64,000 nucleotides of DNA, taken from contig JAALGY010000052.1 of NCBI GenBank assembly GCA_032358165.1, forward strand, positions 1,798,001 to 1,862,000, read 5' to 3'. Source of the DNA: Diplosphaera chodatii (taxonomy: Eukaryota; Chlorophyta; Trebouxiophyceae; Prasiolales; Stichococcaceae). Under the pieces are notes generated by a model. That model did not search any database. It saw only the letters and a list, made by a program, of their open reading frames with translations, and was not told where the DNA came from. Shown here one piece after another: positions 59,937-60,496 of this stretch; within the stretch, counting starts at the first letter, position 1; each line of letters starts with the position of its first letter. The translations under genes and the position numbers were made by a program.

Positions 59937-59940
59937 AAAA
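59937..59940 (-). terminator. Probable RNA polymerase III terminator (TTTT)
   Basis: The first run of four T on the minus strand after the permuted tRNA, beginning 10 nt beyond the last base of its 5' half. Pol III stops at such runs. Confidence 0.55.
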
Positions 59941-59949
59941 CGAAACAGA

Positions 59950-60033
59950 CTTCAGTGCCACGCTCTTCCAACTGAGCTATAAAGGCTCGTATAACATTGC
60001 CTTCACCCGGGATCGAACCAGGGACCTTGGCAA
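59950..60033 (-). tRNA. Circularly permuted tRNA-Phe (anticodon GAA)
   Basis: Read on the minus strand, the 3' half comes first (60033 to 59998): loop T, anticodon-stem TGCCA, variable AGGTC, T stem CCTGG, T loop TTCGATC, T stem CCGGG, acceptor TGAAGGC, discriminator A. Eleven bases follow (59997-59987), then the 5' half (59986 to 59950): acceptor GCCTTTA, TA, D stem GCTC, D loop AGTTGGAA, D stem GAGC, G, anticodon stem TGGCA, loop start CTGAAG with anticodon GAA at 59953-59951. Joined at the anticodon loop these give a normal cloverleaf. Acceptor 7 bp (one G-U), D stem 4 bp, anticodon stem 5 bp perfect, T stem 5 bp (one G-U). U8, A14, G18G19, A21, U33, purine 37 and the G15-C48 pair are all present. 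No CCA is encoded. Box B therefore lies upstream of box A. Identity Phe is from the anticodon and A73. Confidence 0.9.
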
Positions 60034-60496
60034 CTCTGCTAGTCATCGTTGATGCCCCTCACCATAATTCTGCATCTTATCATTTATGGACGCCGCTTTT
60101 CAGTATAATGGCGGTTTTAGGGTTTAGCGTATGCACAATCCTCGGCCCAGCCCCAGCTGTGCGCTAGCCCAGCAAGTTTCGTCGGGTGGCTGGCGATTGG
60201 CATCACAACACGCGGACCCCAACATCATTTCACATCAGCGTCTGCAAGGGGTTGCCATGTAGCAGCAGCATCAGCCAATATTGAACCAAAACCGCGATAC
60301 TGTGCCACCATTCGCCACATCGATGCCCGTGCGCAGTGCACAGTCACAGGTCCAATGTCCAAGGCAGGCCCCTCAAAACCGTGCTTCCATACAACTTTAA
60401 TCCTACCACCGTGTTGGGCCTGTGTCCCCATGCTGCCTACCTGTTCTGCCATGCTTGTGCATCTGCTGCCATGCCCGCTGAACACAAGGAGTGGGC
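60034..60496. other. Intergenic
   Basis: About 460 bp between the tRNA gene and the stop of the SET gene. An A/T-rich patch (about 60062-60089) lies 30-55 bp upstream of the tRNA gene on its own strand and could serve as an upstream Pol III element. A single plant-type telomere-like TTTAGGGTTTAG occurs near 60116. Confidence 0.45.

Follow-up and report, generated by a model that had tools for sequence, protein, structure and literature searches.

This 64-kb stretch of nuclear DNA carries what is very probably a working circularly permuted gene for tRNA-Phe(GAA), the product of which would be made by RNA polymerase III (Pol III) transcription, cleavage at a bulge-helix-bulge (BHB) and passage through a circular RNA. 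The window, i.e., the whole stretch that was analysed, comprises bases 1798001-1862000 of contig C45 in a genome of 85.6 Mb and 55 contigs, and the gene occupies positions 59950..60033 on its minus strand, as judged from the order of its parts, ARAGORN on the rejoined halves, a covariance model and tiling with circularised sequence. Read along that strand, the 3' half (tRNA positions 38-73, with the B box, 36 nt; 59998..60033) comes first and is followed by an 11-nt intervening sequence, ATGTTATACGA (59987..59997), placed between the 3' and 5' ends of the tRNA and free of TTTT, and then by the 5' half (positions 1-37, with the A box and the anticodon, 37 nt; 59950..59986). The two halves are thus swapped on one strand around a short spacer, the reverse of an ordinary intron-bearing gene in which the 5' half lies upstream, and they meet at a 37/38 junction, i.e., the type II arrangement of green algae. 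A leader (60034..60047), 12-14 nt of which are unchanged in the homeologous copy described below, adjoins the 3' half, a T4 run that is a putative Pol III terminator lies downstream of the 5' half (59937..59940), and an upstream element, CTAAACCCTAAAACCGCC...GAAAAGCGGCG, spans -94 to -58 (60091..60127). Three ORFs neighbouring the locus gave no match in Pfam.

Joining the 5' half to the 3' half yields a 73-nt tRNA-Phe(GAA) with A73 and a complete cloverleaf (ARAGORN), the stems of which hold two G.U pairs in all, one in the acceptor stem and one in the T stem. The conserved bases are present (T8 and A14 were checked, the other positions by eye). Position 20 is A; the usual Phe identity base at this position is G (yeast, human). 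The sequence-only reading had described a 3' half preceding the 5' half across an 11-nt gap and a near-perfect cloverleaf on rejoining, and both descriptions are exact for this locus. It had also expected standard finders to miss the gene, as indeed they do: linear ARAGORN returned no genes and Rfam at gathering scores no matches in the 64-kb window, and ARAGORN with introns allowed made a single call, a tRNA-Ser split by a 916-nt intron, away from the locus. A tRNA finder run on circularised sequence, as the same reading had suggested, does recover it, the circularised 84-mer of the locus being called tRNA-Phe by ARAGORN (a circularised 150-mer gave no call). When the window was tiled with 9131 circularised 84-mers, four gave any tRNA, one of them elsewhere and three overlapping the locus, of which one was read as Phe while two were out of register; none of 9131 base-shuffled circularised 84-mers gave a tRNA. 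For a covariance model, 12 ordinary nuclear tRNAs from this genome, none of them Phe, were put into permuted order in silico. This model scored the locus at 62.7 bits (E = 7e-19, a rough value) and matched nowhere else in the window up to an E of 10; an earlier permuted model that included Phe gave it 71.8 bits.

An unbroken nuclear tRNA-Phe gene was sought in several ways. The joined 73-nt tRNA-Phe used as a query against the genome found only two loci, both permuted and each as two half-matches (two candidates scored). An A-box pattern with at most two mismatches hit 18 places and revealed no further nuclear Phe gene: seven lay on contigs C54 and C55, two were the permuted Phe pair itself, and the remaining nine comprised Lys (two), Tyr or a Tyr piece (two), Ala (one), two tRNA-like loci (L117 and L118) and two places without a tRNA (L120 and L121). 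Among the 63 RF00005 matches listed, 24 are nuclear, and ARAGORN called 23 of these, none as Phe, leaving a partial match on C41 uncalled. The only unbroken Phe(GAA) genes seen were two, one on C55 (L015) and one on C54 (L026), where 24 of 39 RF00005 matches were examined. Both contigs look organellar: C55 (174 kb) carries a plastid ccsA and a 301-base stretch of 36% GC (L050), and one stretch of C54 (84 kb) has 23% GC. The closest matches to this ccsA are 99% identical, and the best species-named one among the 120 listed belongs to the trebouxiophyte Prasiolopsis wulf-kochii (55% over 71%); Neocystis, Coccomyxa and some Chlorophyceae follow further down the list. By this gene the host is a green alga, probably a trebouxiophyte, and the earlier attributions to a green alga and to its nucleus hold. 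As these routes brought up no unbroken nuclear Phe gene, the cytosol probably relies for the decoding of Phe codons on the permuted pair, which, judged from the assembled sequence, is probably the cell's only non-organellar source of tRNA-Phe. The lack of an ordinary nuclear gene, raised beforehand as a condition for such dependence, is in this way supported, short of proof.

The best-surviving alternative, compatible with our preferred explanation, is that the permuted locus is expressed but minor, and that an unbroken nuclear Phe gene overlooked by the searches supplies most of the tRNA-Phe. The RF00005 list holds the best 63 of 1132 candidates, is identical at E of 10 and 0.001, leaves out genuine genes, Arg(ACG) and Met(CAT) among them, and is not usable as a census; moreover, the searches aimed at Phe used the A box and the joined tRNA, and a strongly diverged Phe gene could escape pattern searches and a single DNA query of which the best candidates were scored. 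We nevertheless regard this alternative as unlikely, as neither the joined-Phe query nor the A-box pattern turned up anything else nuclear of Phe type.

A second copy of the permuted Phe gene is present on contig C17 (L001), at the place corresponding to that on C45, and the comparison of the two is informative as to function. All 73 tRNA positions are identical, whereas 5 of the 11 intervening-sequence sites differ, the outer flanks agree in 128 of 190 columns and in 94 of 148 (about two thirds), and BLAST identity across the region is 78% over 2.1 kb. An identical tRNA within a diverged spacer and diverged flanks is the pattern left by selection on the product and not on the spacer, and the drift that a pseudogene would show is not seen. 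Degeneracy in relatives, named earlier as an outcome that would speak against a functional gene, does not appear in the one relative compared, i.e., this homeolog. The same holds throughout the five homeologous pairs of permuted genes introduced below: their tRNA halves are identical in 360 of 361 columns, the single change (G-U versus G-C in the Cys acceptor stem) keeping the pairing by our own reading, against 69 of 94 columns in the intervening sequences, 55 of 60 in the leader (-1 to -12), 42 of 60 in the trailer (1-12), and 504 of 970 and 386 of 728 in the outer flanks. The difference between halves and intervening sequences has a Fisher p of about 1e-17, for sites and pairs that are only partly independent. 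These data bear directly on the reading of the locus as a silent relic, a disused remnant of a tandem duplication that has lost its outer halves. The tandem-duplication model for permuted genes, as given in a 2014 review (PMC3978253), predicts such remnants, and broken tRNA copies do exist in this genome (truncated Asn in L106 and L108, truncated Ser in L152, Tyr pieces in L069 and L116). However, a relic would hardly have kept all 73 tRNA positions while its outer flanks fell to about two thirds identity, nor retained the T run, the upstream element and the leader in the homeolog, and neither the joined-Phe query nor the A-box pattern brought up a replacement nuclear Phe gene; we therefore consider it improbable, more so than a minor but expressed locus.

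C45 and C17 share the tRNA order Asp, Phe, Asp, Cys and Asn, with Phe and Asn oppositely oriented. Other contig pairs (C3/C10, C46/C49 and more) likewise have their tRNA genes in common, with the order kept or reversed, within strongly diverged non-coding DNA, which suggests a hybrid or an old duplicated genome.

The Phe gene belongs to a family. Short B-box and A-box patterns, followed by inspection of the flanks, recovered at least ten permuted tRNA genes in the genome, forming five pairs on eight contigs and all having a 37/38 junction: Phe(GAA) on C45 and C17 (intervening sequence of 11 nt), Cys(GCA) on C17 and C45 (30 nt), Pro(AGG) on C3 and C10 (13 nt), a further Pro(AGG) on C35 and C38 (31 and 28 nt) and Pro(TGG) on C11 and C25 (8 and 9 nt). 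The Phe-free model scored the nine genes outside the window at 52.1-61.6 bits and the next match at 26.2 (41 of 167 loci scored), and the Phe-containing model, applied to 80 loci, placed permuted genes at 52.4 bits and above and the rest at 27 and below. On circularised 400-bp pieces ARAGORN recovered the Phe gene of L001 and the Pro(TGG) gene of L125; it misread a Cys piece (L063) as Ser and a Pro piece (L127) as Leu and was not relied on. That the Phe locus might be a chance or repeat-derived tRNA-like arrangement, from a mobile element or an assembly error, has in its favour the presence of repeats with B-box-like stretches GGTTCGATCCC (e.g., L055, L059 and L071), and can be dismissed at the sequence level given the model score, the mere two copies at corresponding places on C45 and C17, the conservation between homeologs and the recurrence of one anatomy in ten genes of four kinds on eight contigs, which a single assembly error would not produce.

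By hand tally, 61 nuclear tRNA genes were resolved, 34 of them unbroken, 17 intron-bearing and 10 permuted; the census is partial and its counts are lower bounds, 15 of 23 and 9 of 21 nuclear places of two pattern lists having been inspected. No nuclear His or Trp genes, nor several isoacceptors, were seen in this partial census. The introns measure 14-60 nt and lie at or near 37/38. Pro(CGG) is intron-bearing, which leaves two of the three Pro species with permuted genes, and Ser(GCT), Ser(AGA), Leu(CAG), Leu(AAG) and an initiator-like Met are not permuted in this genome. L083, L084, L094 and L102 are genuine tRNA genes by eye and by ARAGORN. The homeologs L144 (C3) and L145 (C10) make sense only as Leu(AAG) with an intron at about 34/35, inside the anticodon, in agreement with ARAGORN; their acceptor stems differ and each is fully paired.

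Several tRNA-like fragments were also encountered. A Tyr 3' half (L069, C26:215423) and a Tyr 5' half (L116, C26:248091), the latter interrupted within the anticodon, lie 33 kb apart on one strand; we read them as a remnant rather than a split tRNA. Three near-identical Asn tRNA regions (L106, L107 and L108; C17:1956540-1974220) each have an additional tRNA-like 5' half 65 nt upstream, and in two of them other sequence stands in place of the T arm. A tRNA-like 5' piece with the anticodon loop CTGGAAA and no T arm (L109, C25:3050370-3050620) is perhaps an organelle-derived fragment. A repeat family (L051-L055, L058, L059, L067, L068 and L071-L075) contains the B-box-like GGTCCCCGGTTCGATCCC, several members forming inverted pairs about 100 bp apart; by our own reading it has the box pattern without a tRNA and was rejected, as were L057, L078 and L081 (box pattern, no tRNA) and the A-box look-alikes L086, L088-L093, L095-L097, L100, L101 and L103-L105 (no tRNA). 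Linear ARAGORN without introns, run on the 57 loci set aside, made two calls only, Val(CAC) at L117 and Met(CAT) at L118; these two are homeologs with conflicting calls and, by eye, poorly paired acceptor stems, and they were left out of the tally. Allowing introns of up to 150 nt added nothing but an Ala, interrupted by a 122-nt intron, in L071 and L072, both of the repeat family.

In the BHB expected at a 37/38 junction, the four leader bases before the 2-nt bulge piece pair with positions 32-35 of the anticodon loop. In the Phe gene these bases are GCAG (60036-60039), able to form three of four pairs with CUGA, i.e., a BHB in relaxed form only. The Cys genes likewise form three of four and all six Pro genes four of four (with one G.U in two of them). 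Five representatives together make 18 of 20 pairs, against a random mean of 8.5 and with none of 20000 draws as high, and the mean at the BHB register is 3.6 of 4 as compared with 0.9-2.2 at twelve other offsets. At the same place, 15 of the 17 intron-bearing genes (two Leu genes, with the intron elsewhere, were omitted) have a mean of 3.13 pairs, and 4 of the 15 have only two of four. The Pro leader base facing wobble position 34 tracks it (A34 with T, T34 with A), and in the intron-bearing Pro(CGG) the intron-end base facing it follows too (C34 with G). This pairing and covariation indicate that the leaders play the part of an intron's 3' end. A minimum free energy fold of the Phe precursor in which leader AGCAGA pairs with trailer UCUGUU was set aside, as by eye the pairing is lost in the homeolog's trailer.

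As regards transcription, a run of four or more T within 40 nt downstream of the 5' half is found in all ten permuted genes (background, 314 of 9138 plus-strand 40-mers of the window), as well as in 25 of the 31 rows parsed for ordinary nuclear genes, and none of the ten intervening sequences contains TTTT. Upstream, the strict motif RACCCTRA-(0-4)-CCG occurs at -91 to -111 in seven of the ten and the core ACCCTRA in eight; the element is absent from one Pro(AGG) pair (ProAGGa). The motif was noticed in the same upstream stretches in which it was then counted, and the counts are descriptive. Within 200 bp of ordinary nuclear genes (31 parsed rows, 30 genes) the strict form is present in 7 and the core in 10, a Ser pair outside the parsed rows also has the strict form, 17 intron-bearing rows, many with less than 200 bp of upstream sequence, show 0 and 1, respectively, and 20 organellar rows have neither. 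Both strands of the window hold one strict match, that at the Phe gene, and 15 other nuclear loci hold one in 90,570 strand-bases; the core occurs 9 times in the window and 13 times in those loci. Being present in some but not most ordinary nuclear tRNA genes, the motif would represent one promoter type and not a universal one. More broadly, a bipartite element, roughly TAAACCCTRAAACCGCC-N-GAAAANTGGCT, stands about 80-140 bp before nuclear tRNA genes (L006, L007, L033, L034, L038, L040, L041, L094, L102, L146, L147, L149 and eight permuted ones), and looks like an upstream Pol III promoter.

We propose the following route for the Phe gene. Pol III would start upstream at a site set by the -94 to -58 element, and not by ordered internal A and B boxes, and would stop at the T4 run that follows the 5' half. 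The anticodon stem would bring together the transcript ends, and the leader could pair with positions 32-35, giving a relaxed bulge-helix-bulge that the tRNA-splicing endonuclease would cut at 37/38 and a ligase would close into a circle. RNase P and tRNase Z would then excise the 11-nt intervening sequence, and CCA addition would complete a linear tRNA-Phe. The same succession (Pol III transcript, BHB cleavage, circle, RNase P and tRNase Z trimming, CCA addition) is summarised for algal permuted genes in the 2014 review (PMC3978253). It is also possible, in our view a little short of probable, that cytosolic tRNA-Phe, tRNA-Cys and two of the three tRNA-Pro species are made wholly through circular RNA, and that an upstream Pol III element at -90 to -110, shared with some ordinary genes, has replaced ordered A and B boxes and so allowed permutation.

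The class is already known, and the alga's Phe gene adds a member to it. The genome of Auxenochlorella is far smaller than that of the present alga (85.6 Mb). Like the present one, that of Auxenochlorella UTEX 250-A (2025; PMC12633428, PMC12636532) is a trebouxiophyte nuclear genome with permuted tRNA genes, which were found after a tRNAscan-SE set had proved incomplete. The 2014 review counts 34 permuted genes in seven species, and its Table 1 lists neither Phe nor Pro among them (PMC3978253); the titles and abstract openings of the papers listed likewise yielded no report of a permuted Phe or Pro gene, the Auxenochlorella isotypes lying outside this comparison. As the review relates, the genes of prasinophytes (Ostreococcus and Micromonas; Maruyama et al. 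2010, via PMC3978253) resemble ours in being nuclear, in having a 37/38 junction in all but one of 19, in a relaxed BHB and in the shortness of the intervening sequence (11-64 bp, against 8-31 in this genome). The isotypes represented there, namely Ser, Leu, Cys, initiator Met, Arg and Asn, include neither Phe nor Pro; Cys(GCA) is common to both. Cyanidioschyzon merolae (Soma et al. 2007, via PMC3978253) similarly combines many intron-bearing and permuted genes in one genome, with an upstream promoter and a downstream T run proposed; however, its junctions fall at 20/21, 37/38, 50/51 and 59/60, unlike the uniform 37/38 of all ten genes here, and its upstream signal is TATA-like and within 50 bp, whereas ours is of CCCTAAA type and about 90-110 bp away. 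Swapped halves are also described in the nucleomorphs of Bigelowiella natans and Amorphochlora, there in Ser(AGA) and Ser(CGA) (PMC4494063, PMC3978253), and in Thermofilum pendens, there with a 59/60 junction and an encoded CCA (PMC3978253).

What sets this alga apart is the likely dependence on permuted genes for Phe and Cys, the five homeologous pairs and an upstream element common to ordinary genes. With ten genes in five such pairs, it becomes possible to compare how leader, intervening sequence and promoter have each fared under selection. If the dependence on circular intermediates is true, the permuted genes would be essential. When the tRNAs of such algae are annotated by standard tools alone, genes that are probably essential will go unnoticed. 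If the upstream-element reading is true, it would answer how permuted genes are transcribed. For a class that is thinly sampled, this genome supplies a candidate promoter element, together with a dependence that can be put to the test.
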